The notes beneath the pieces were generated by a model. It saw only the letters and a program-made list of their open reading frames with translations. It made no database searches and had not been told where the DNA came from. A program made the translations under genes and the position numbers. Below are positions 2,769 through 15,760 of a DNA stretch of 15,760 nucleotides, in pieces (the first letter of the stretch is position 1; each line of letters starts with the position of its first letter). This DNA comes from Verrucomicrobiota bacterium (GTDB lineage Bacteria > Verrucomicrobiota > Verrucomicrobiia > Limisphaerales > AV2), in the NCBI GenBank assembly GCA_003218935.1, contig QHPA01000207.1, forward strand, positions 1 to 15,760, written 5' to 3'.

Positions 2769-3365
2769 ATGATCGAACCCATCCCTGACCCCTCGCAAAA
2801 GCCGCCCGCGTCCGTTGGGTTCAATGGCATGGGAAGCGCCTTCACACTGATTGAACTACTTGCTGTGCTGGCGATCATCAGTGTGCTCGCCGGCTTGCTC
2901 CTGCCGGTCATCAGCAAGGCAAAGGAAGCGGGGCGGGCCACCGCGTGCCTGAGCAACCTGCGGCAGATCGGCATCGCGCTGCAGCTTTACGTGCAGGACA
3001 ACAACAATCGTCTGCCGGTGATGCGCGACAAATCATTTGACACGAACGCGCCGCCAACCAACGCGCTGCCAGGCCCGGACGTGGCGCTGTCGAATTACCT
3101 CGGCGCGGTGAAGGTGCTGCGTTGTCCGTCGGACCGGAAACGGATTTACGAACAGACCGGTTCGAGCTATGCGTGGAACAGCTTGCTCAACGGCCAGGAC
3201 GCCGAGCAGCTCAAGATGTTGAACATGGATTTTGATCCGCACCAGATTCCGGTGTTCTTCGACAAGGAAGCGTTTCACAGCGCGCGCGGCCAGAAGAAGG
3301 GCGTCAACTACCTCTACGCCGACGGCCACATTAAAAATCTGCTGGCGATCGAGGGAAGTAAATGA
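2769..3365 (+). CDS. Type II secretion/type IV pilin-like pseudopilin (prepilin N-terminal methylation domain)
   Basis: This is a 198-residue prepilin-like protein. The class III signal reads MGSA then [18 protein letters not shown] (residues 21-42), with the invariant Glu at residue 29, position +5 of the predicted mature protein. The residue before the cut is Ala rather than the usual Gly. The hydrophobic helix is followed by a globular part with [11 protein letters not shown] and a C-terminal [12 protein letters not shown]. That layout matches the short pseudopilins (H-X9-DG type) that are abundant in Verrucomicrobiota and Planctomycetota, although here the spacing from His to Asp-Gly is longer. 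Such proteins are inserted in the inner membrane and cleaved by a prepilin peptidase, and the role of individual paralogues is mostly unknown. The start is set at ATG 2769. GTG 2709 lies against the repeat tail, and ATG 2829 would leave almost no leader. No other secretion gene is adjacent. Confidence 0.85.
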
Positions 3366-5267: not shown

Positions 5268-5299
5268 GGGCCTGCGGGGATGCTTGGCCCGGCTTTTTT
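5268..5299 (+). terminator. Possible intrinsic terminator after the ABC permease
   Basis: GGGCC (5268-5272) pairs with GGCCC (5286-5290). An inner GC/GC pair surrounds a GGGGAT loop, and TTTTTT follows at 5294-5299, three bases after the stem. It fits the end of the plus-strand ABC transcript, just before the convergent rng stop. The stem is short and bulged, so confidence is moderate. Confidence 0.4.
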
Positions 5300-5320
5300 G
5301 ATGTGCTTTTGGCAGGCGTT

Positions 5321-7303
5321 CTAACCGCCGACACTGGCCATTTGTTCGTTGGTGGCGACGTTGACGATCTGGAACTGCTCGGCGTGGAACGCCGGGTCAG
5401 CGCGGAAGGAGAGTTTGCCGAAATAGCGCTTCTCCAGTTCGATGAGCAGCTTCTCGTCTTCAGTGCGGAGGCGCTCCAGCACCGTTGGATTCACAACGAT
5501 GCGAAGCTGGAAGTCCGATTCATCCCGCTGGCGTCGCTTGAGGATCTCCGCGAGCTTGCGCTGAATCTCCACGCTCATGGTAAGCGCGCTCTTCACTTTG
5601 CCGCGGCCTTTGCAGTACGGGCAATCGTCATAGACGGCGGCCCGCACGCTCTCGGTGTGGCGTTGGCGTGTCATTTCCATCAAACCGAGTTGTGAAATCG
5701 GCAGGACGTGCGTCTTGGCGCGGTCGCGCTTTAATCCTTCCTTCACCCGCTGATAAACCTGCTGCTGATCGCGGCGCGATTTCATGTCGATGAAATCGAG
5801 CACAATGAGGCCGCCCATGTTGCGTAGGCGCAGTTGCCGGCAGATGTCGTCGGCTGCTTCGAGGTTGACCTTGAGGATGGTGGATTCCTGATCTTTGCCG
5901 CTTTTGTGTCGGCCGGTGTTGACGTCGATGGCGACGAGCGCCTCGGTTTCGTCGATGACGATGTAGCCGCCGCTCTTCAAATGCACCTGGCGCGCGAAGG
6001 CGCCTTCCAACTGCCTGGTAATGTTGAAGCGATCGAAGACCGGCTGGGAATCCACGTAGAGCTTGACCTTGGAAATAGAACGCTGGGAGATGCGTCCGAT
6101 CATTTCGCGGATGCGATCGTATTGCCGCGGGCTGTCGATGACAATGCGCTCGACATCTTCGGTGAGGAAATCGCGCACCGTGCGCTCAACCAGGTCCGGC
6201 TCCTGGAAAACGCAGGTGGCCAGCGGCTGTTTGTTGCTTTTTTCCTGAATCTGCTTCCATTCGTCGATCAGCAAGGCGAGGTCGCGGACGAAGTAACGTT
6301 TTTGCTGGCCATCGCCCACGGTGCGAATGATGACACCCATGCCTTCGGGAATGTTGAGTTCCCGGAGGATTCTTTTCAGGCGCTGGCGTTCCTCATGATT
6401 TTCGATTTTGCGCGAGATGCCGCTTTGATCGGAATTTGGCAGCAACACCAGGTAACGCCCGGGCAGAGCCAGGTTGGTCGTCACGCGCGGCCCTTTGGTG
6501 CCGATGGGCCCTTTGGTCACCTGCACAATGATGTCGCTGCCCGGCGGATAGAGACGGGGGATGTCCCGCTGCGTGATGCGGGGTTTGTCGCGCTTGCGGC
6601 CTTCGCGTTCGACTATTTCGACGCTGCTGTCGAAGTTGCTGGGGACGATGTCCCAGTAGTGCAGGAAGGCGTTTTTCTCAAAGCCGATGTCCACGAAAGC
6701 GGCTTTCAAACCGTCCTCGAGGTTTTTCACCTTGCCTTTGAAAATGCTGCCGACGAGACGCTCGTCCGAGGTGCGTTCGATGGTGAACTCTTCGAGCTTG
6801 CCCGCTTCGAGCACTGCGACGCGTGTCTCCAGGGACTCGGCGTTGATGACGACCTCCTTGTGGAGTTTTTTGGCGGGCTTAATCAGGCGCTGGACTTTTT
6901 TGATGACTCTCGTGGCCACGACTTTGATCGCGTCCACGAAGCCCTGTGGCGGCTGTTCCTTGACCTGAACCGGTTGGAAACCGGATTCCTCCTCTTTCAC
7001 TTCAGCGGGAATGGCGAGGTCAGGCACGCGGAATTCGCGCTTCCTTTGTTCACCGGATCCGGGCGCTTTCGCGACGGCGGGAGCGTCGGCCGGCAGGCCG
7101 GCAGCCAGATTTTCTGCGCGTTGAATTTCGCGTTCATGACGCGCGCGGTCGAAGACCGAATCTTCGCTCGGTTTTTCACCGAGCGCTTCGGCGCGGGCTT
7201 CGCTGGCGGCGCGGTCAGTGCGCTGAACGTTGGCGGACATTCCGCCGCTCGGGCGGAACCGGTGGCCGCCTCGACGGCGGCGGGAAAAACTCTTTTCACT
7301 CAT
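5321..7303 (-). CDS. rng: Rne/Rng family ribonuclease (RNase G/E-like)
   Basis: This single-strand-specific endoribonuclease acts in rRNA maturation and mRNA decay. It is 660 residues long. An Arg/Lys-rich, low-complexity extension fills about residues 1-150. An S1-like RNA-binding domain follows (about 160-270; LVGSIFKGKVKNLEDGLKAA, FVDIGFEKNAFLH), then the RNase H-like and catalytic region. AIDVNTG gives Asp460 and VLDFIDM gives Asp503, spaced 43 residues apart as Asp303 and Asp346 are in E. coli RNase E. The Zn-link CPYCKGRG (Cys561, Cys564) is intact, so the usual tetrameric architecture is expected. There is no long C-terminal degradosome scaffold, as in RNase G. The start is ATG 7303, 3 nt after the rodA stop, and it is the last gene of the elongasome operon. 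E. coli also places rng next to mreBCD. The N-terminal extension is the unusual part. Confidence 0.95.
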   Translation of the reverse strand: MSEKSFSRRRRGGHRFRPSGGMSANVQRTDRAASEARAEALGEKPSEDSVFDRARHEREIQRAENLAAGLPADAPAVAKAPGSGEQRKREFRVPDLAIPAEVKEEESGFQPVQVKEQPPQGFVDAIKVVATRVIKKVQRLIKPAKKLHKEVVINAESLETRVAVLEAGKLEEFTIERTSDERLVGSIFKGKVKNLEDGLKAAFVDIGFEKNAFLHYWDIVPSNFDSSVEIVEREGRKRDKPRITQRDIPRLYPPGSDIIVQVTKGPIGTKGPRVTTNLALPGRYLVLLPNSDQSGISRKIENHEERQRLKRILRELNIPEGMGVIIRTVGDGQQKRYFVRDLALLIDEWKQIQEKSNKQPLATCVFQEPDLVERTVRDFLTEDVERIVIDSPRQYDRIREMIGRISQRSISKVKLYVDSQPVFDRFNITRQLEGAFARQVHLKSGGYIVIDETEALVAIDVNTGRHKSGKDQESTILKVNLEAADDICRQLRLRNMGGLIVLDFIDMKSRRDQQQVYQRVKEGLKRDRAKTHVLPISQLGLMEMTRQRHTESVRAAVYDDCPYCKGRGKVKSALTMSVEIQRKLAEILKRRQRDESDFQLRIVVNPTVLERLRTEDEKLLIELEKRYFGKLSFRADPAFHAEQFQIVNVATNEQMASVGG

Positions 7304-7306
7304 AAA

Positions 7307-8506
7307 TCAATAGTTTCTTCGATAGAGGTACACGTTTTGCAAAACGCCCGCGGCGATCAACGAGCAGAGCACTGAAGACCCGCCGTAACTGAGCAGCGGC
7401 AGTGGAATACCCGTCACGGGCATCAAGCGAATGTTCATGCCGATGTTGATGAAGACATGACTGAAGAGCAGCGTGACCACGCCCACCGCCAGCAATTTGC
7501 CCAGGCGATCGCGCGCCTGGCCGGCGATGCGGATTCCGGTGAACAGAACCACAGTGTAGAGGGACAGGACAAGAACGCTGCCCAGGAAACCTTTCTCCTC
7601 GGCAATCACAGAGAAAATGAAGTCGTTGTGCGCCACGATGGGCGGCAGGTAACCGAGCGCAATCTGCTGTCCCTGACGCCAGCCTTTGCCCCAAAAACCG
7701 CCCGAGCCAACGGAAATCAAAGCCTGCTTCACGTTCCAGGAATCGTTGCGTTCCTGAAGGCGCGCCTTCTGGCGTTCGGCTTCGGTGCTTTTGTCGGCGG
7801 CGAAATCGCGATTGAAATAGACCCACAGCCGGCGTCGCTGATAATCCTCCAACTTGATCTGCCAGGCGGGCGGCGCGAACAAGATATCCACCAGCAATAG
7901 CGCCACCAGAACTCCTGCGGCGCCGACCAGGCGGCGCAGAAATCGCGTCGGCACGCCTGCCACGTAAGTCATGACCAGACCCACGGGCAGCAGCACCAAC
8001 GCGGAGCCGAGATCGGGTTCTTTCAGGATCAACAGGAACGGCAGCACCGTGAGACCAACGGCCTTGACGAACACTGTCGGCTGGCGCAGTTCTTCCGTCG
8101 GCCGGCTGAGGAAATGCGCCTGGATGAAAATGAAAGCGAGCTTGGCGAATTCGGACGGTTGCAGTTGGAAGAACCCCAGATCAATCCAGCGCCACGCGCC
8201 GAGCCGATACGCGCCGACATGCGGAAGCAGCACGGCGATCAGCAGCAGAATCGCCATCCAGTAAGCGACCATGGACCACCGGGCGAGCGAGTGGTAATCG
8301 ATCAAACAAATGCCCACCGCGGCTGCTGCGCCCATCAGATACCAGATGATTTGCCGGACGGGGAACTGGTTGTACCACGCCGCAGTCTCACTCGGTGGCT
8401 TGGCGCTGTAAATGAACGCCACGCCGATGATCATCAGCCCGATAATGGCCAGGATCATCCCCCAGTCCACGCGCGACTGGCGTCCGCTCAGGTGGATTTC
8501 AAACAT
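7307..8506 (-). CDS. rodA: Rod shape-determining protein RodA (SEDS peptidoglycan glycosyltransferase)
   Basis: RodA polymerises lipid II into glycan strands during lateral wall growth, working with the class B transpeptidase PBP2. The 399-residue protein has about ten membrane segments. SEDS landmarks are WIDLGFFQLQPSEFAKL (107-123), LKEPDLGSAL (161-170), GSGGFWGKGW (267-276), HNDFIFSVIAEEKG (293-306) and GIPLPLLSYGGSS (366-378). Asp295 in the HNDFIF segment aligns by motif with the catalytic Asp of RodA enzymes, where the usual form is HTDFIF. The stretch at about 212-260 before GSGGFWG is a long, charged soluble loop. The start ATG 8506 is 2 nt after the mrdA stop, and the stop is 3 nt before rng, so translation is almost certainly coupled. 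Confidence 0.96.
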   Translation of the reverse strand: MFEIHLSGRQSRVDWGMILAIIGLMIIGVAFIYSAKPPSETAAWYNQFPVRQIIWYLMGAAAAVGICLIDYHSLARWSMVAYWMAILLLIAVLLPHVGAYRLGAWRWIDLGFFQLQPSEFAKLAFIFIQAHFLSRPTEELRQPTVFVKAVGLTVLPFLLILKEPDLGSALVLLPVGLVMTYVAGVPTRFLRRLVGAAGVLVALLLVDILFAPPAWQIKLEDYQRRRLWVYFNRDFAADKSTEAERQKARLQERNDSWNVKQALISVGSGGFWGKGWRQGQQIALGYLPPIVAHNDFIFSVIAEEKGFLGSVLVLSLYTVVLFTGIRIAGQARDRLGKLLAVGVVTLLFSHVFINIGMNIRLMPVTGIPLPLLSYGGSSVLCSLIAAGVLQNVYLYRRNY

Positions 8507-8508
8507 CG

Positions 8509-10395
8509 TCAGTTTTGCACCAGAGATTCCGGTTTGTTTGGCTTCGATTGCGACTCGCGCTTTTGCAGCGCCAGATAAACCTGCTGAGCGACGGGTGCGG
8601 AGGTTGCGCCGCCGGACGTTCCGTCCTCAATCATCACCACCACGACATAGCGCGCGTTGTCGAACGGCGCGAAGGAGGCGATCCATGTCGTGTGGCCGAT
8701 GGTTTTGCGTCCTTGCTGGATCTGGGCAGTGCCGGTCTTGGCGCAAATTCTCATTCCCGGGACAAAGGCTCTTGTGCCTGTGCCTTCGGCATCCTCCACG
8801 TCAGCGAGCATGGCGCCGCGAACGGCGTTGAGACTGTTTCTGCTGATTCCCAATTCGCCGCGAATCCGCCCGGCGGGAAACTTGACGGCCTGATCGGCGC
8901 GGAAGGGGTCCTGCGGTTCGATGCGCGCCACCAGCCGGGGCCAATAGACCGTGCCGCCATTGGCGACCGCGGAGATCATGACGGCGACTTGCAACGGGGT
9001 GACGTCGATTTCCTGGCGCGGGAGAATGCCGGTGCGTTCGCCAAAGTGGAACCGCTTGCCCATTTCCGCGATACGGTCCACGCCGAGTTTCAAACCTTCG
9101 TGAATGAAATAGGAGTTGCTTGATTTAACCAGTGCCCGGCGAAAATTGAAATCGCCCGGACCGGCTAAGTCGTCAATTGGTTTGTGCCCGCGAGCGATCA
9201 CATAAAAGCCCGGGCTATGGTAAACTTCGTTCGGGTCCAGCGTTCCTGCCTCCAGCCCGGCGAGGCCGACGACGATTTTGAAAATAGAACCGGGCGCGTA
9301 ATTTTCCTGCATGGCTCGATTGATCTGCGGGCGCAGAATCGGATCATCCAATTTCGCGGCTTCGGCTCTTTCCTCGGTCAAACGCACGGCGAAATCGTTT
9401 GGATCGTATGCAGGATCGGAGGCCATCGCGATCAGGTCGCCGTTGCGCGGGTCCATAACGACCACCGCGCCTCGGACCGGACCGGCGTAGGGAACCGGCG
9501 CCGAGCGCAGGGCTTTTTCAGCCGCCTGTTGGATGGCGATGTCAATGGTCAGGTAAACGCTTTGACCGGCCTCGGCCGGCGCCCAGACGTTTTCCGATTG
9601 GCGATAACCCAGACTGTCCACCAGGACGGATTTGACTCCGTTCCGGCCGCGCAGTTGCTCGTCAAACGCGCCTTCGATTCCGACCACCCCTCGGAAATCC
9701 GGCATCCGGTAATTGAAGAAGACATCTTCGTCGGCCGCCGAATCATCGCGCTGCAAATGACCGAGCAAATGGCCTGCCGCGGCGTGATGGGGGTACACTC
9801 GCACGGGCTGAACTTCCAGGTCAAAGCCCGGCAAGTCAGCCGATTGTTCGGCAAACAGGGCGATTTGCGTCGGGTTGAGGTTGGTCAACACAGCCATGGG
9901 CATGAAGAGGCGCTGATCGTAATGTTCGATGAATTTTTTGTCCTGCAAGGGCACCGGCTGGTGAAGCAACGAACTGACGCGATAGACCAGATTGCTGACC
10001 ACCTGGTAGCGCGTCAGCCTGCCCAACTCAATTCGCTGGTTGCGCGTGAGGCGGGCTTTCGAATTGGTCCTGGTGAGCTGGCGCATGACCCAGTTCAAGT
10101 TGTTGCTGTAGGCGGATCGAAAGTAAGGTCGTAGTTCATCCAGGTAGAGGTTGACGTTGTAGCTGGGGCGGTTTTCGGCCAGCGCGACGCCGTTGGCGTC
10201 AAAAATTTTTCCGCGGATGGCCGGGATGCGCACCGCGCGAAACGACTGGTTGATCTGGCTGGTCTGGTAGCGCTTGGCAGAGAGCACCTGCACGTACCAG
10301 AGCCCCAGCAGCAGGAGACCCAGCCCTGATAAAACAGAGATGGCCAGCACCCGCAATTGCCGGTCGTTCTTTCGGAGTTGGTCAAATATCAGCAT
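8509..10395 (-). CDS. mrdA: Penicillin-binding protein 2 (peptidoglycan D,D-transpeptidase MrdA)
   Basis: PBP2 is the class B transpeptidase of the elongasome and crosslinks the glycan made by RodA. It is 628 residues long, a normal size for the family. A membrane anchor lies at about 15-35 (RVLAISVLSGLGLLLLGLWY). The pedestal follows, with RAVRIPAIRGKIFDANG (53-69), the usual first motif after the anchor. The transpeptidase motifs are all present: SIFK with nucleophile Ser370 and Lys373, SSN at 425-427, and KTGTA starting at Lys553. The active site therefore appears intact. It starts at ATG 10395, 6 nt after mreD, and ends 2 nt before rodA. PBP2 (mrdA) is preferred over the divisome PBP3 (ftsI) because of its place between mreD and rodA. 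Confidence 0.96.
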   Translation of the reverse strand: MLIFDQLRKNDRQLRVLAISVLSGLGLLLLGLWYVQVLSAKRYQTSQINQSFRAVRIPAIRGKIFDANGVALAENRPSYNVNLYLDELRPYFRSAYSNNLNWVMRQLTRTNSKARLTRNQRIELGRLTRYQVVSNLVYRVSSLLHQPVPLQDKKFIEHYDQRLFMPMAVLTNLNPTQIALFAEQSADLPGFDLEVQPVRVYPHHAAAGHLLGHLQRDDSAADEDVFFNYRMPDFRGVVGIEGAFDEQLRGRNGVKSVLVDSLGYRQSENVWAPAEAGQSVYLTIDIAIQQAAEKALRSAPVPYAGPVRGAVVVMDPRNGDLIAMASDPAYDPNDFAVRLTEERAEAAKLDDPILRPQINRAMQENYAPGSIFKIVVGLAGLEAGTLDPNEVYHSPGFYVIARGHKPIDDLAGPGDFNFRRALVKSSNSYFIHEGLKLGVDRIAEMGKRFHFGERTGILPRQEIDVTPLQVAVMISAVANGGTVYWPRLVARIEPQDPFRADQAVKFPAGRIRGELGISRNSLNAVRGAMLADVEDAEGTGTRAFVPGMRICAKTGTAQIQQGRKTIGHTTWIASFAPFDNARYVVVVMIEDGTSGGATSAPVAQQVYLALQKRESQSKPNKPESLVQN

Positions 10396-10401
10396 GTCCG
10401 C

Positions 10402-10968
10402 TCAGTAATCTACATGACGTCCGCGATCCCGCTTGATTTCGCGGTCGGGACGAAAACTGGTTTCCGGCTGGGCCTGATAGCTAAAGGCGCGATTGAACTG
10501 GTCGAAAAGGTAGAAACAAACCGGTGTGAAGGCCGCGCCGCCGAGCGCCATGACCAGCCACTGCCACAGCGAACACCAGCCCAACAACGGTTCGTCTCCC
10601 GTGCCAATCAGTGACAACACAGTAAACAACGGGGCCACCGCGCTCGCGGCCAGACCCAGCATGAATTGGGCGTAGAGCTGCTCGCGCATAATCAGGTCGC
10701 GGCAGTAATGGACGACCAATCCGATGACGAACAGCGGCAGCACGCTGATGCCCAGCGGATTGGTTGAAAGGGAATCGAACCACAACCCGCCCAGCGTCGC
10801 GATCAGCGCCACGGTCGAAATGTTGGCGCTTAAACTCGCATAAACCACCAGCGCCGGCAGCAGGTCGATTTGTGCGCCGATCAGGTTCCGCAGACCGCGA
10901 AAGTACGATTCGAGAAAGACCGCCAGGAAGGCGACCAGGAGAATCGCGATGGTGTTCATCCAGTTCAT
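10402..10968 (-). CDS. mreD: Rod shape-determining protein MreD
   Basis: This 188-residue, strongly hydrophobic protein has about five membrane segments, including NTIAILLVAFLAVFLESYF at the N-terminus, ALVVYASLSANISTVALIAT and GISVLPLFVIGLVVHY. The short glycine-rich GGLWFDSLSTNPLG between segments 2 and 3 is the best-conserved feature of this weakly conserved family. A charged cytoplasmic tail (PETSFRPDREIKRDRGRH) ends it. MreD is an inner-membrane part of the elongasome that works with MreC to control RodA-PBP2. The identification rests on topology, that motif and position between mreC and mrdA. Its ATG overlaps the mreC stop in an ATGA arrangement, a sign of translational coupling. Confidence 0.9.
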   Translation of the reverse strand: MNWMNTIAILLVAFLAVFLESYFRGLRNLIGAQIDLLPALVVYASLSANISTVALIATLGGLWFDSLSTNPLGISVLPLFVIGLVVHYCRDLIMREQLYAQFMLGLAASAVAPLFTVLSLIGTGDEPLLGWCSLWQWLVMALGGAAFTPVCFYLFDQFNRAFSYQAQPETSFRPDREIKRDRGRHVDY

Positions 10969-11783
10969 TGCAACATTACCCAGACTTGTTCCAGGCGGTT
11001 CAGGTTCACCACGAGTTTGACTCGGGCTTCGAGGTTCAAACCGTGGTCGTTGGTCCGCACATCCACGATTTGGCCCACGGTAATTCCTTTCTGAAAAATG
11101 CCGCCGTCGCCGCTGGTGAGCACGGGCTGGCCCGGCTTGAGCAGACTGCCCCCGGGCACAAACACGAGGTCCACCAACAGACGGTCCAGGCTGGAAGCGC
11201 TCGGTGAGATGATCCCTTTGGCCACGACGCTTTGGTCACGCGGCTCCTGCACCTGCGCCGAGAATCGACAGTTTGGATCGCCGACCAGCACGACGCGCGA
11301 GCGGTCGAAACCCACGTCGGTGACGCGTCCAACGAGGCCTTCGGGAGTCAGCACCGTCATATTGGGGTGTATCTTGTCCCGCAGGCCGACATCGATCATT
11401 ATCGTTCGCCACCAGTTTGCCGGGTCTTGTCCCACGACGCGGGCGGGTTTCAACGACCACGGGACGCGCTGCTGCCAGCCCACGGCCCGACGCAGTTGCG
11501 CGTTTTCCCGCGAGGCTTCCTGTGCTTGCACGAGTTGTTCGTGCAATCGCTGGTTTTCCTTGCGGAGTTCGTCGATCTGCTGGAGGAGCGCGCTGCGCGG
11601 CGCGATGGCATTACCGGTTTGTTCGGCGAAATTCTGCGCCGAGCCGGCCAGGGCGAAGAGCGGCAGGAAAAGTCCGCCCAGCGCGAGCTTGAGTTTGCCG
11701 GCCGTCTGCTCGGGCAGGTTGAGAACAACGAGCACGAGCAGCAAAACCAGGCCGACCGTCATATAATACTGCCTTCTTAACAT
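10965..11783 (-). CDS. mreC: Rod shape-determining protein MreC
   Basis: MreC is a periplasmic scaffold that binds and activates PBP2. The 272-residue protein has one N-terminal anchor (YMTVGLVLLLVLVVLNL, 7-23). A second hydrophobic stretch at 33-48 precedes a coiled coil at about 66-100 (LLQQIDELRKENQRLHEQLV). The two beta-barrel subdomains follow, with ARVVGQDPANWWRTIMIDVG (114-133), VLTPEGLVGRVTDVG (144-158), VVLVGDPNCRFSAQV and LTSGDGGIFQKGITVG (222-237). These are standard MreC signatures. The start ATG 11783 has GGGGTGA upstream as a plausible SD. It begins 55 nt after mreB, and its stop overlaps the mreD start. Confidence 0.95.
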   Translation of the reverse strand: MLRRQYYMTVGLVLLLVLVVLNLPEQTAGKLKLALGGLFLPLFALAGSAQNFAEQTGNAIAPRSALLQQIDELRKENQRLHEQLVQAQEASRENAQLRRAVGWQQRVPWSLKPARVVGQDPANWWRTIMIDVGLRDKIHPNMTVLTPEGLVGRVTDVGFDRSRVVLVGDPNCRFSAQVQEPRDQSVVAKGIISPSASSLDRLLVDLVFVPGGSLLKPGQPVLTSGDGGIFQKGITVGQIVDVRTNDHGLNLEARVKLVVNLNRLEQVWVMLQ

Positions 11784-11838
11784 CTGTCACCCCGTCGTCA
11801 GAGCGGGGCGGACACACTCCTGAACCGTTTCCAGCGGC

Positions 11839-12867
11839 TCAGGTTCGGCTGGAGGAAGCGACTCGCTTGAGAAATTGGAGTTCCTGCAAAACGCGGCCGG
11901 TGCCTTCCGCAACGGCAGTGAGAGGATCGTCCGCAATGTGGACCGGCAGGCCGGTTTCTTCGGCCACCAATCGGTCAATGCAACGCAACAATGAGCCGCC
12001 GCCCGCCATGACAATGCCGCGATCCACCAGGTCGGCGGACAATTCAGGGGGGCAACGCTCCAAAGTGATGCGAATGGACTCCAAAATACTGGTGAGAGGC
12101 TCCTTCAGGGCTTCCCGGATTTCCTCGGAACGAACCGTGAGGGTCTTGGGCAACCCGGCGCTCAAATCCCGCCCTTTGACTTCCATGGTTAATTCCTGTT
12201 CCAGAGGAAAGGCCGAGCCAATACGGATTTTTATTTCTTCCGCGGTGCGTTCGCCAATCATCAAGTTATAGGCACGTTTCATGTAGGCGACGGTGGTTTC
12301 ATCGAACTCGTCGCCACCGACCCGCAAACTGCGACTGAACACAATTCCTGCCAGGGAAATGATCGCAATTTCACAAGTCCCGCCGCCAATATCGACAATC
12401 ATATTGCCGGCGGGTTCATGCACCGGCAAACCGACACCAATCGCAGCGGCCATCGGTTGTTCGATCAGATAGACCTCGCGCGCGCCGGCGTGAGTGGCGG
12501 AATCTTTGACCGCCCGTTTTTCCACTTCCGTGATGCCGGAGGGTACCGCCACCACGACTCGGGGAGCGATCAGTTTGCGACGGTGAACCTTTTGGATGAA
12601 ATGCCGCAGCATTGCCTCCGTGATTTCGAAATCGGCAATCACGCCATCTTTCATGGGCCGGATGGCGACGATGTTACCGGGCGTGCGGCCGAGCATGCGC
12701 TTGGCTTCCTCCCCGACAGCCAGGACGTTGGTCGTTCCCGCCTGGATTGCAACGACCGAAGGTTCACGCAACACGATCCCCTGATCACGAACATAAACGA
12801 GAGAATTCGCAGTCCCAAGGTCTATCCCAATGTCGTTGGCAAACAAACTCTTAAGTTGCGCAAACAT
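11839..12867 (-). CDS. mreB: Rod shape-determining protein MreB (bacterial actin)
   Basis: MreB is an actin-like ATPase whose membrane-bound filaments position wall synthesis. It is 342 residues long, typical of the family. The N-terminal MFAQLKSLF can form the short amphipathic membrane helix. Phosphate 1 is [14 protein letters not shown] (12-25), the connector is [12 protein letters not shown] with Glu136, phosphate 2 is [11 protein letters not shown] (158-168), and the adenosine motif is VMAGGGSLL (286-294). It is the first gene of the six-gene minus-strand elongasome operon. The start ATG 12867 has only a weak SD (TAGG about 7 nt upstream), and a better GAGGTG lies a little too far away. 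Confidence 0.97.
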
Positions 12868-12889
12868 GAATTGTGCCTAGCACCTCAAC

Positions 12890-12919
12890 ACGTTACGTGC
12901 GTCAAGTGTGCGCGGTCAA
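12890..12919 (-). promoter_or_regulatory. Candidate promoter for the mreB operon
   Basis: On the minus strand, TTGACC (12919-12914) and TAACGT (12895-12890) are 18 bp apart, placing the start of transcription about 15 nt before ATG 12867. A second TTGACG at 12905-12900 could serve as an alternative -35, but no good -10 follows it. Confidence 0.3.
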
Positions 12920-13009
12920 GTCTATTAACTGGTTGTTCGCCAACGGTGAAGGCCAGTCGGAACCGATGGGAAGAATTTCGACTCGGCTGACAAGTTTTAG
13001 GGGAAATGT

Positions 13010-13084
<75 letters not shown>

Positions 13085-13095
13085 AGAACTCCTTC

Positions 13096-13123
13096 TAAAT
13101 AAAGGCGTTTGAAGATGATTCAA
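13096..13123 (-). promoter_or_regulatory. Candidate promoter for the tRNA gene
   Basis: On the minus strand, TTGAAT (13123-13118) and TATTTA (13101-13096) are separated by 16 bp. The -10 element ends 11 nt before the mature tRNA 5' end, a normal arrangement for a tRNA promoter. Confidence 0.45.
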
Positions 13124-13139
13124 GCGAAATAAATTTTCC

Positions 13140-13163
13140 ACTTGTAACCCAAACTTGTAACCC
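13140..13163. repeat. 11-bp direct repeat upstream of the integrase
   Basis: ACTTGTAACCC occurs at 13140-13150 and again at 13153-13163, with a 13-bp period. It lies just before the integrase start and overlaps its likely -35 region. It may be an operator or an integrase arm-type binding site; no partner copy is visible elsewhere in the window. Confidence 0.7.
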
Positions 13164-13169
13164 TATATT
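13142..13169 (+). promoter_or_regulatory. Candidate integrase promoter giving a leaderless mRNA
   Basis: TTGTAA (13142-13147) and TATATT (13164-13169) are 16 bp apart. A start 6-7 nt beyond the -10 would fall on or beside ATG 13175. The integrase has no SD, which agrees with leaderless translation. Confidence 0.4.
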
Positions 13170-13174
13170 AAAAC

Positions 13175-14662
13175 ATGAAGCGGACTCATGCAAAATCCAC
13201 GGAACCGGCTGGCCAGCCGGTGTTTCACAAGGTCGCTGAGAATCTTTATCGGCTCGAATCATCGGGCGGATACTATGCCCTCGTAAAACGAGCGGGCAAG
13301 CAGTTTCGTCGCTCGTTGAAGACAAAGGACCGGAAGTTAGCGGAACGTCGCCTCAGTGATCTCAAAGCCAAAGTCGGGGCGCTTCGAATCAGCGATGATG
13401 CCGATCTAAATTTTCGGCAGGTCGCTAATTACTGGAATGAAGCGACGAAGCACACAATCGCCGGTGGCACTTTGGCCCGTCGAAATACCTGCATCAAGAA
13501 CCTGTCGGAATTTTTCAAGGATGCGAGCCTCCGTAATATTGAAGTTCGTCACTGCGAACAATGGGCCGCTAACAGGGGCAGCGACGTTGCAGCGCAGACT
13601 TTCGCTCACGAACTGGACACGATGAAATCCGTTTTCAAATACGCGGTGAATCACGGTCTCATTCTTGCCAATCCAGCGGCGAGTATAAAGCGGAAGAAAA
13701 TCTCGAATCGCAAAATCCTCACCCCGGCTCGAGAGCAATTCCAAGAAATCGTCGCCGAGATGCGCAAATCCGACGGCAGAAGCGACAGCCAGGAAAAAGC
13801 CAAAGACGGTGCTGACCTGGTCGAATTCCTCGCGTATTCCGGGGCGCGTTTGGGGGAGGCTCATGCTGCCCGTTGGCAGGATGTCAATTTCAAAAATGGA
13901 GAAATCTGGATTCACGGAATTAAATCCGAAGCCAGTGACCGACTCATTCCCATGCCGAGAGAATTGAAGGCATTTTTGGAAAGACGCAAAGCGGAAACCA
14001 AGCCGCAGCGCACCGATCTGATTATCGGAATAAAAAGCGCAAAACGGAGTCTTGCCAGAGCGTGTCGCAAGTTGGGATTGCCACGTTTCACTCATCATGA
14101 TTTCCGGCATTATTTTGCGACGACTTGTATTGAAGAAGGTGTTGATATTCCCACGGTGTCTCGCTGGCTTGGTCATAGCGACGGGGGAGCACTCGCGATG
14201 CAACGTCATGGTCATTTGAGACGAGAGCACAGTTTGGCTATGATGAAACGAGTCAGCTTTGCTCCGAGACCTGACAATATCGTTCCGCTGCCCCAGTCCA
14301 AAGCCTCAACATTCAGAGGCGGTTCACCTGCCACCACAGGCGAACGCCGCGCTATTGCCAAAGCTAAGACGAAATACAGCTATCCTTGGTGGGCGTCAGA
14401 AGTTCCGCTCGAAGTGTTTTGGGGACAGCTCAACGAAGAAACCTTGATTGTTCCAATTGAAAAACTTCTTGAAGTGGCGAAGCTGGTAATGGGCCGTCAG
14501 GTGCTCAAACAGGAGTTAGGCGACCGGCTGGCTCTGATAGACGAGCTTTTTGAAAGAGTACCCGAAGCGACGCTCAACGAAGTTCTCCCCAAAATACCGA
14601 GCGAAATTACTTCGCAAACAGGGCGTCCAGGTCCAGCGCAATCTCTGGCACAGCGGCACTGA
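13175..14662 (+). CDS. Tyrosine recombinase/phage integrase family protein, catalytic Tyr replaced by His
   Basis: This 495-residue protein has tyrosine-recombinase architecture. An arm-binding-like N-terminus (YYALVKRAGKQFRRSLKTKD, 33-52) is followed by a core-binding SAM-like domain at about 78-175 and a catalytic domain at about 183-355. Catalytic residues seen are Arg225 in YSGARLGEA, Lys250 in HGIKSEASDR, His308 and Arg311 in HHDFRHYF, and His334 in WLGHSDGG. In this subfamily the nucleophile normally follows as AMxxYGHLRxEHS, but here it reads AMQRHGHLRREHS. His345 (CAT, 14207-14209) therefore replaces Tyr, one T-to-C change from TAT, and no other Tyr is near. The protein is predicted to be recombination-dead but still able to bind DNA. 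A C-terminal extension of about 130 residues has no recognised domain. The 3' end overlaps the convergent Uma2 gene by 56 nt. Confidence 0.92.
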   Translation: MKRTHAKSTEPAGQPVFHKVAENLYRLESSGGYYALVKRAGKQFRRSLKTKDRKLAERRLSDLKAKVGALRISDDADLNFRQVANYWNEATKHTIAGGTLARRNTCIKNLSEFFKDASLRNIEVRHCEQWAANRGSDVAAQTFAHELDTMKSVFKYAVNHGLILANPAASIKRKKISNRKILTPAREQFQEIVAEMRKSDGRSDSQEKAKDGADLVEFLAYSGARLGEAHAARWQDVNFKNGEIWIHGIKSEASDRLIPMPRELKAFLERRKAETKPQRTDLIIGIKSAKRSLARACRKLGLPRFTHHDFRHYFATTCIEEGVDIPTVSRWLGHSDGGALAMQRHGHLRREHSLAMMKRVSFAPRPDNIVPLPQSKASTFRGGSPATTGERRAIAKAKTKYSYPWWASEVPLEVFWGQLNEETLIVPIEKLLEVAKLVMGRQVLKQELGDRLALIDELFERVPEATLNEVLPKIPSEITSQTGRPGPAQSLAQRH

Positions 14663-15179
14663 TGAGTCGGCCACCCGGACCGTGGATGGCTCGTTCGACA
14701 AAGTGGTCCCCGGCGGGTTGGAGGTGGACTTCGATCTGTCTGTCCGGTGCCAGCACGAACCAGCATTCCTTCACGCCCGCGTTGGCGTAAGCGCGGAGTT
14801 TGGAGCGGTCGTGGTCCTGGGTGGTCACACAAACCTCGATGACAAGCTCGGCGGTGTGGGGATGGTTCCGGTAGAAGTCCTCCTCGCGTCCCCGGACCAC
14901 TGCGAGGTCGGGTTCGGGCTCTGAGTCCTGACAGGTGATCGGTTGTTCTGGCCGACAAAGACACCCAGTCGGGACCAGGGTCTGCAGCAACCGGAGGAGC
15001 CGCATGGCGAGAAAACTGTGCAGGGGGGATTTGGACATTTTGTGGAAAACCTGGCCGTAGAGCAATTCGGTCTGCTTGGGAATCAAGCCCATCTCGCCCA
15101 ACGCATGATACGCCTTTACGGAGAGAGGCAAGACTTGCGGGCCGCGGACCTCTGCTTTCGATTCTTCGACTTCCGTCAT
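14607..15179 (-). CDS. Uma2 family endonuclease (PD-(D/E)XK fold, former DUF820)
   Basis: This 190-residue protein is normal in length for Uma2 proteins, predicted restriction-endonuclease-fold proteins common in multicopy in many bacteria and of largely unknown biological role. Family motifs in order are an N-terminal LPLSVKAYHALGEMGLI, a YGQVFHKM segment, SPLHSFLAMRLLRLL, EPEPDLAVVRG with Asp91, and ELVIEVCVTTQDHDRSKLRA with Glu115 and Lys127. The last is followed by YANAGVKECWFV. The acidic and lysine positions expected of the fold are present, so the core appears intact. The start is ATG 15179 with a weak SD. A larger open frame on the same strand (14497-15210) is a shadow in another phase. 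It may be cotranscribed with the HTH gene upstream, with a 65-nt gap. Confidence 0.9.
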   Translation of the reverse strand: MTEVEESKAEVRGPQVLPLSVKAYHALGEMGLIPKQTELLYGQVFHKMSKSPLHSFLAMRLLRLLQTLVPTGCLCRPEQPITCQDSEPEPDLAVVRGREEDFYRNHPHTAELVIEVCVTTQDHDRSKLRAYANAGVKECWFVLAPDRQIEVHLQPAGDHFVERAIHGPGGRLISAAVPEIALDLDALFAK

Positions 15180-15222
15180 GCCAGAATCTAGCCCATTGTG
15201 GCGGGTTCACTCAAGCTCGTTG

Positions 15223-15242
15223 TTATGGAGTTTTATGGAGTT
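15223..15242. repeat. Perfect 10-bp tandem duplication
   Basis: TTATGGAGTT is repeated head to tail at 15223-15232 and 15233-15242, two bases after the end of the HTH gene and about 45 bp upstream of the Uma2 start. One helical turn of period would let a DNA-binding protein dimer contact one face, so it is a candidate operator. Confidence 0.6.
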
Positions 15243-15244
15243 CT

Positions 15245-15529
15245 CTACCTGCAACTTGTTCTCGAAAGATCTCCTGTTTCGATGGACGTTTCCCGCAAAA
15301 AGCGGTCAAGATCATCTTTGGAATAAATCGGATGTCGCAACGCGCGCGAGGGGTGCAGCAAGCCTCGTTTTGTCAATCGGTCAATCGTGATTTTCGCGAC
15401 GCCCAAATATGTTGCTGCTTCGGCGCGTTTGAATCCCTTTTTCTCAATGTAAGCTTTCGGTTCGGTATCTTTCGGATAACCGTGGCGATGCGTTTGATGT
15501 TTGGACGGCAGACATTTTCTTTTGAGCAT
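15245..15529 (-). CDS. Small helix-turn-helix protein, excisionase/MerR-like (HTH_17 type)
   Basis: This 94-residue basic protein has one winged-helix HTH unit at about 34-81. KRAEAATYLGVAKITIDRLT is the turn motif, GLLHPSRALRHPIYSKDDLD is the wing, and RFLRET closes it. The layout matches excisionase and MerR-type DNA-binding domains that act as recombination directionality factors or small transcriptional regulators. The N-terminal 30 residues are basic and probably disordered. AGGA sits 4-5 nt before ATG 15529. It follows the unknown upstream gene by 11 nt on the same strand, so the two look like one operon. Its nearness to an integrase suggests an Xis-like role, but that is inference. Confidence 0.82.
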   Translation of the reverse strand: MLKRKCLPSKHQTHRHGYPKDTEPKAYIEKKGFKRAEAATYLGVAKITIDRLTKRGLLHPSRALRHPIYSKDDLDRFLRETSIETGDLSRTSCR

Positions 15530-15540
15530 AGAATCCTGTT

Positions 15541-15760
15541 TTATTCGATCTTGATGGTTTCGACCTCGATTGTTTCGATGGCTCCGCCCGCGCTGCCCAC
15601 AGCGGCGTAGCGTTCCGGCACTGAGAAGATGGCCTCGACGGTGCGGGTTTGGAGGGCGATGGCCCAGTCGCGCAGATGGGTGCCGGAAATGCGGACCCGA
15701 TGATTGAGAAACGAAATTGTTAGGGTGTCCTTGCCCTTGATGGACTCAAACTTCGCGAGG
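15541..15760 (-). CDS. Unrecognised protein, C-terminal 72 residues (5' end outside window)
   Basis: This is an open frame entering from the right edge and ending at TAA 15543-15541. The visible C-terminus reads LAKFESIKGKDTLTISFLN, then HRVRISGTHLRDWAIALQTR and TVEAIFSVPERYAAVGSAGG. It ends with a repetitive acidic IETIEVETIKIE. I do not recognise the family. The codon pattern and the tight 11-nt spacing to the HTH gene support it as real and cotranscribed. No membrane segment is visible in this part. Confidence 0.65.
   Translation of the reverse strand, partial: LAKFESIKGKDTLTISFLNHRVRISGTHLRDWAIALQTRTVEAIFSVPERYAAVGSAGGAIETIEVETIKIE

Follow-up and report, generated by a model that had tools for sequence, protein, structure and literature searches.

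Histidine at the nucleophile position of a Verrucomicrobiota integrase inserted at the 5' half of a tRNA-Met gene

Introduction

What has become of a tyrosine recombinase that reads histidine where its nucleophilic tyrosine should be? The question is raised by an integrase gene in a contig of a Verrucomicrobiota bacterium (QHPA01000207.1, assembly GCA_003218935.1), of which the whole stretch analysed, 15,760 nucleotides, is called the window below. An earlier note, made from the sequence of the window, had described the histidine in an otherwise complete active site and had offered recent inactivation of a mobile element or retention of the protein as a DNA-binding regulator, with sequencing error as the trivial alternative. 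Here, we compare the integrase with its homologues and with the allele of a sister genome, describe the site at which its element is integrated, and weigh these explanations together with that of a nicking enzyme. The features of the window are collected in Table 1.

Table 1. Features of the window discussed in the text, with the basis of each assignment.
Feature	Position	Strand	Basis or remark
mrdA-like (PBP2-like) gene	8509-10395	-	named from translation
tRNA-Met (CAT), integration target; 5' end faces int	13010-13084	-	ARAGORN
attL core, 38 bp: tRNA nt 1-37 (into anticodon loop) and one flanking base	13048-13085	-	exact repeat in sister attR
Direct-repeat pair TTGTAACCC, period 13, first copy	13142-13150		probable arm-type site, putative role
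Direct-repeat pair, second copy	13155-13163		probable arm-type site, putative role
Promoter-like site of int (TTGTAA, 16 nt, TATATT)	13142-13169	+	consensus match only
Tyrosine recombinase (integrase) ORF, 495 aa, with C-terminal extension	13175-14662	+	Pfam, PHROG, homologue search
Catalytic Arg225	13847-13849	+	alignment column
Catalytic Lys250	13922-13924	+	alignment column
Catalytic His308	14096-14098	+	alignment column
Catalytic Arg311	14105-14107	+	alignment column
Catalytic His334	14174-14176	+	alignment column
Integrase codon 345, CAT (His), nucleophile position	14207-14209	+	alignment with best 120 of 2404 homologues
Uma2-family gene	14607-15179	-	Pfam Uma2, 2.6e-20
Small HTH_17/MerR-type protein, candidate excisionase (RDF)	15245-15529	-	Pfam HTH_17, 1.5e-07; putative role

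Results

Histidine occupies the nucleophile position of an otherwise intact active site

The integrase matches the Pfam family Phage_integrase (PF00589) at 1.8e-19, with 70.6 bits against a cut-off of 27.1, and the phrog_1 integrase at 2.9e-60. A search with the protein found 2404 homologues, the best 120 of which were aligned with it by MAFFT for the comparison of residues. At column 345, Tyr is present in 120 of these 120 homologues and His in the window, which confirms the reading of the CAT codon in the earlier note. The remaining catalytic residues listed there are likewise in place in the window, at columns that are conserved among the same 120 sequences: Lys250, His308 and Arg311 are each found in 120/120, Arg225 in 119 with one gap, and His334 in 119 with Arg in the last. 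The open reading frame is uninterrupted over its 495 codons, as had been stated. We considered whether another tyrosine could serve as the nucleophile, which the earlier note had named as a refutation. This was ruled out, since column 345 is the conserved Tyr of the best 120 homologues and was aligned in a profile match to the Tyr of the XerA (5hxy) segment IYTHLN. With the Tyr nucleophile missing, the protein is a tyrosine recombinase by descent and not by catalytic definition. Outside the active site, an alignment of 61 sequences revealed a nearly invariant N-terminal region and a conserved C-terminal extension with near-invariant columns at 395-461.

The place of the substitution is unusual, and the histidine has no counterpart among the relatives found

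To see the substitution in proportion, we counted departures at the 89 columns that are conserved in at least 117 of 119 relatives. Column 345 is the only one of these at which the window deviates. The 119 relatives comprise 93 that agree with all of these columns, 21 that differ at one and five that differ at two to nine, so that 26 depart at one or more of them. Furthermore, 87 of the 495 integrase columns are invariant, and nine unconstrained changes would strike at least one of them with a probability of 0.82. Considering both figures, one departure alone is unremarkable, and it is the location at the nucleophile that is unusual; a change at an invariant column is by itself no sign that function had been lost beforehand.

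None of the best 120 of the 2404 homologues shares the histidine. Scans for exact matches to one motif in a sample of genomes, which are silent on distant families, found GALAMxxHGH in the window's genome alone out of 387 from the phylum, and the tyrosine form GALAMxxYGH 14 times in 13 of the 387, two of them again in the window's own genome. In viral contigs, the same kind of scan returned no AMxxHGHLxxEH and 15 stretches with AMxxYGHLxxEH. The search for orthologues with His that the earlier note had suggested was thus negative within this scope, and the scans speak against a His-bearing clade close to the window's integrase. A literature search found no paper on recombinases without the catalytic Tyr.

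The sister allele encodes tyrosine, and selection was kept up along nearly the whole branch

In the sister genome (G001), contig C196 (QHNT01000076.1) carries the integrase at the same chromosomal place with TAT at codon 345, and positions 5275-15760 of the window are about 97% identical to the sister in DNA. A third allele (ENA, P0001), identical at 483 of 495 residues (98%), also has Tyr at 345. The integrase genes of window and sister differ by 9 nonsynonymous and 36 synonymous codons, without a gap or a stop, and dN/dS was 0.068 (NG86), 0.090 (YN00) or 0.085 (ML). The test of selection named in the earlier note therefore points to strong purifying selection. Other genes of the window range from 0 (mreB) to 0.33 (mreC), and the integrase has the third lowest value after mreB and the ABC permease once the row for part of gcvP (2.18), a badly aligned stretch, is set aside. 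The names used here and below (mreB, mreC, mreD, mrdA/PBP2, rodA, rne/rng, gcvP, ABC permease and rpsO) are what we take these genes to be from reading their translations.

When the differences were polarised by the majority of seven outgroup loci, the window branch received six nonsynonymous sites, codon 345 included, and 18 synonymous sites; seven further synonymous sites that could not be polarised were divided half and half. Assuming an omega of 0.06 otherwise, constraint was absent from no more than about 9% of the window branch (95% Poisson bound). Codon 118 polarises in the opposite direction with closer protein relatives, in which Ser is usual, and this does not weaken the conclusion. 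As such, the histidine is recent, if it is real. The uninterrupted frame, the low dN/dS of 0.07-0.09 and the short unconstrained share together rule out a long-standing pseudogene.

Recent inactivation, the first of the two readings in the earlier note, fits these data best, because no relative found has His, the corresponding locus of the sister encodes Tyr, selection covers nearly the whole branch and the other catalytic residues are kept. We give a probability of roughly 0.6 to a recent catalytic knock-out of the integrase in an integrated mobilizable element that is now locked in place. According to this reading of the sequences, the base would be real, the activity lost and the element unable to move. 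The part of the earlier assessment that still weighs against it is error, which stays the main rival and is taken up below with the state of the assembly.

The element is integrated in the 5' half of tRNA-Met

The integrase gene starts 90 bases from the 5' end of tRNA-Met, and the tRNA reads away from it. In the sister, attL lies on contig C196 and a 38-bp copy of the core forms attR at G001:C105:9245-9282, adjoining the rpsO flank. Two further members of the genus have empty sites (G004:C74 and G002:C325): their DNA similarity to the window stops at 13085, the base beside the 5' end of the tRNA, and their similarity to the sister's rpsO flank starts at the tRNA, in G002 as judged from alignments that meet there. 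G003 has the 38-mer with one mismatch beside the rpsO flank, and its site is probably occupied as well. The element therefore lies on the promoter side of tRNA-Met and the duplicated part is the 5' half of the tRNA, which rules out a conventional insertion at the tRNA 3' end. The restored tRNA-Met takes its 5' half and its leader from the element, and the native upstream region is left beside the orphan 5' half.

In a further case (L041), a single contig contains both ends of the element: tRNA-Val occupies 7823-7897, and 37 bases of its 5' half are repeated at 13442-13478, which gives an element of about 5.6 kb. The right arms of this element and of the sister's are alike. As to gene content, the 3' end of the integrase gene overlaps the convergent Uma2-family gene by 56 bp (14607-14662) in window and sister alike. 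A TrwC relaxase (1.8e-63) was detected in the sister contig only, beyond the point that corresponds to the end of the window, in a frame that runs off the contig. This TrwC-type relaxase indicates that the sister's element is mobilizable or conjugative.

The assembly has two suspicious places, neither of the type of a base substitution

The opposite end of the element was sought in the window's own assembly (G000). On its contig C347, the rpsO flank runs to base 3224 and is followed by 75 bases (G000:C347:3224-3298) that are 98.7% identical to mreB (window 12629-12703); beyond them lies an element-like arm, 88% over 101 bp. The corresponding interval of the sister holds attR. The mreB piece is probably a local assembly fault caused by mates of the duplicated tRNA half. 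Past about 100 bases, the arm of this contig (L074, from 3298) is closer to that of G003 (L073, near 9000-9606) than to that of the sister, and the likeness may reflect a mosaic, or the use of this one tRNA-Met site by different elements. The second place is in the mrdA-like gene, where an in-frame segment of 96 bp (32 codons) with copies of TTCCTGGC on either side is absent at 9009/9010. The segment is present in G001, G002 and G003, the three members of the genus in which this stretch could be compared, and its loss in the window is either a real deletion or an assembly fault.

These observations bear on the reading that the histidine is an error of sequencing, consensus or assembly, or a minority strain variant chosen by the assembler, in which case the usual enzyme of the population would have Tyr and be ordinary. 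The substitution is a single transition in one draft assembly of 546 contigs and 82% completeness, from which fixation is not deducible; the same assembly has the chimeric-looking stretch on the attR side and the 32-codon loss that the three genus members do not share; and His was seen nowhere else, either in the best 120 of 2404 homologues or in the motif scans of phylum genomes and viral contigs. Against error, the integrase frame has neither a gap nor a stop relative to the sister, the 467 mismatches over 14062 aligned bases between the two assemblies provide true changes enough to include the CAT codon, and the suspicious places differ in type from a base substitution. We thus regard error as unlikely, but as an explanation that deserves to be taken seriously.

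Integrases of this group face the 5' ends of many tRNAs

To see whether the layout is peculiar to the window, we examined 33 of 56 loci. Left out were the window itself (L001), L040 on the contig of L011, L048 with an integrase gene cut by the contig start, L057 at 22% identity, and the partial or weak matches L005-L009 and L026-L039. In 28 of the 33 relatives, the 5' end of a tRNA faces the integrase gene. The other five comprise one with the 3' end facing, one with the tRNA downstream and three with no tRNA in reach, one of which has just 40 bases of upstream DNA. Because the 28 tRNAs comprise nine identities, the 5'-facing layout does not go back to one inherited locus, although the integrases are related.

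Beyond this set, the 14 loci with the Tyr motif in phylum genomes have the 3' end of a tRNA facing the integrase gene in eight, the 5' end in five and no tRNA near in one; two of the five 5'-end loci (L086 and L099) are in the window's genome and are identical with L002 and L003 of the 33 relatives. Among the 15 viral-contig loci, the 5' end faces the gene in two and no tRNA is near in 13, in 12 of which the DNA fetched or the contig itself starts within the open frame. Family members with a tRNA 3' end facing the integrase gene were seen at L088 and L091-L097 (open frames of 357-403 aa). The orientation of targeting varies within the wider integrase family. The window's genome itself holds other Tyr integrases, at tRNA-Lys and at tRNA-Ser, which might act in trans on the element; their leader repeats differ from that of the window, at tRNA-Lys by one of nine bases.

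A repeat pair is fixed in the leader and overlaps a promoter-like site

The leader between tRNA-Met and the integrase gene contains a pair of direct repeats (Table 1). Of 27 leaders, 23 have such a pair, with period 13 and at least 8 of 9 bases matching, at a distance of 73 to 81 bases upstream of the tRNA; in 100 shuffled sets, the number averaged 0.04 and never exceeded 1. The 27 leaders derive from 29 5'-facing loci (the window and the 28 relatives), with window and sister counted as two and with L015 and L025 excluded for an uncertain start of the integrase gene. The repeated words vary between subgroups (GGGTTACAA, GGGATACAA, AGTATAGAA, GTATCAGAT), and a similar pair is found in the right arm of the sister element and of L041. 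The pairs are probably arm-type sites of the integrase.

In a consensus scan of the window's leader, one promoter-like site was found on the integrase strand, compared with a mean of 0.2 in shuffles; its first hexamer and most of its spacer lie within the repeat pair. The same scan gave no promoter-like site on the tRNA strand of this leader. Across the 27 leaders, TATAAT-like hexamers are near the tRNA in 15, where shuffling gave 6.5 on average and 13 at most, which is weakly in line with an element-borne promoter of the tRNA.

Considering that the repeat pair overlaps the promoter-like site, binding of the integrase at its own promoter is plausible, and it would be equally so for members with Tyr. 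This brings us to the second reading in the earlier note, a retained DNA-binding regulator that would act on the repeat pair between the integrase gene and tRNA-Met and control two divergent promoters without cutting. Apart from the overlap, the nearly invariant N-terminal region would suit such a role; window and sister are identical over the first 114 residues apart from residue 15, at which the window has the Pro that is usual in the family, and dN/dS is low over the whole gene. However, the period that preceded the change accounts for the low dN/dS, none of the other catalytic residues is lost, autoregulation would apply to Tyr members too, and no relative with His was found among the best 120 of 2404 homologues, which leaves the regulator without positive support. 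We consider it quite improbable.

Discussion

The histidine at the nucleophile position of this integrase most likely means that one copy was inactivated recently, or that the assembly is at fault, and not that the enzyme is of a novel type. In the knock-out that we prefer, a mobilizable element would have entered between tRNA-Met, on the mreB side, and rpsO through recombination in the tRNA-Met 5' half. Its Tyr allele would be an arm-binding integrase that recombines the core in the tRNA 5' half, with the HTH_17 protein as a candidate excisionase. A single change in the lineage or population would then have placed His at the nucleophile position. Such an enzyme would form no 3'-phosphotyrosine intermediate and therefore could neither integrate nor excise, so that the element would be trapped, while the protein would probably still bind its arm sites and core. 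Cre deprived of its Tyr (Y324G) yielded no cleaved product (PMC2747268).

A different outcome would follow if His itself acted as the nucleophile, or let water attack, and turned the integrase into a site-specific nicking enzyme at the core site. Wittschieben et al. in 1998 reportedly converted the vaccinia topoisomerase into a site-specific endonuclease by replacing its active-site Tyr with Glu, Cys or His, and the remaining active-site residues are intact in the window integrase. However, this type IB topoisomerase is only a distant mechanistic relative, cuts at a tRNA gene would be costly, and no second example with His turned up in the best 120 of 2404 homologues or in the motif scans. Moreover, the Cre mutant Y324G also gave no hydrolysis product (PMC2747268), though with Gly rather than His. 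In both Cre and the vaccinia enzyme the active-site Tyr was replaced and the other residues were kept, as here, but those are laboratory mutants and the change in the window is a natural or apparent one. Nicking is highly improbable in our view.

Among known systems, the genomic-island tyrosine integrases (PF00589, phrog_1) share with the window the catalytic domain, the R-K-H-R-H set, a tRNA attachment site and a small HTH protein nearby; the window copy differs from them in reading His at the nucleophile position and in the conserved C-terminal extension. Targeting of the tRNA 5' half is known and uncommon. Zhao and Williams are said to have described a reversed target orientation in 2002 (cited in PMC6563490). 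In Islander, 159 islands have a 5' tDNA fragment against 3760 with a 3' fragment (PMC4383910). As in the islands with a 5' fragment, the tRNA 5' half is duplicated here and the element lies on the promoter side of the tRNA. In contrast with them, the layout is common to an integrase group (28 of 33 loci and nine tRNA identities) and the repeat pair is fixed in the leader.

The archaeal pTN3-like integrases also use the tRNA 5' half as attB, and the integrase promoter then drives the tRNA; according to a review, a comparable situation is rare in bacteria (PMC8371274). Dependence on the element promoter is stated for the pTN3-like integrases, and it would be expected for the window. The window differs from them in its bacterial host and in an integrase gene that stands whole beside the tRNA and is not split. 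A literature search combining integrases, tRNA genes and Verrucomicrobia found only work on a haloarchaeon, which is no proof of absence. A more far-reaching reading would join these threads: a Verrucomicrobiota integrase group may enter tRNAs from the 5' side and put the host tRNA on an element promoter, next to repeats that the integrase binds, and the nucleophile-less integrase of the window may still bind these repeats and serve as a non-cutting controller of the divergent promoters of its own gene and tRNA-Met in an element unable to leave. We hold this combination to be quite improbable.

Taken all together, the histidine, if true, would put a date on the loss of mobility by an element on the promoter side of a host tRNA-Met. 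More is to be learnt from the setting than from the histidine itself, in that a group of bacterial integrases targets tRNA 5' halves and keeps one layout of the leader, and this fixed-leader group makes the takeover of host tRNA transcription by an element testable.
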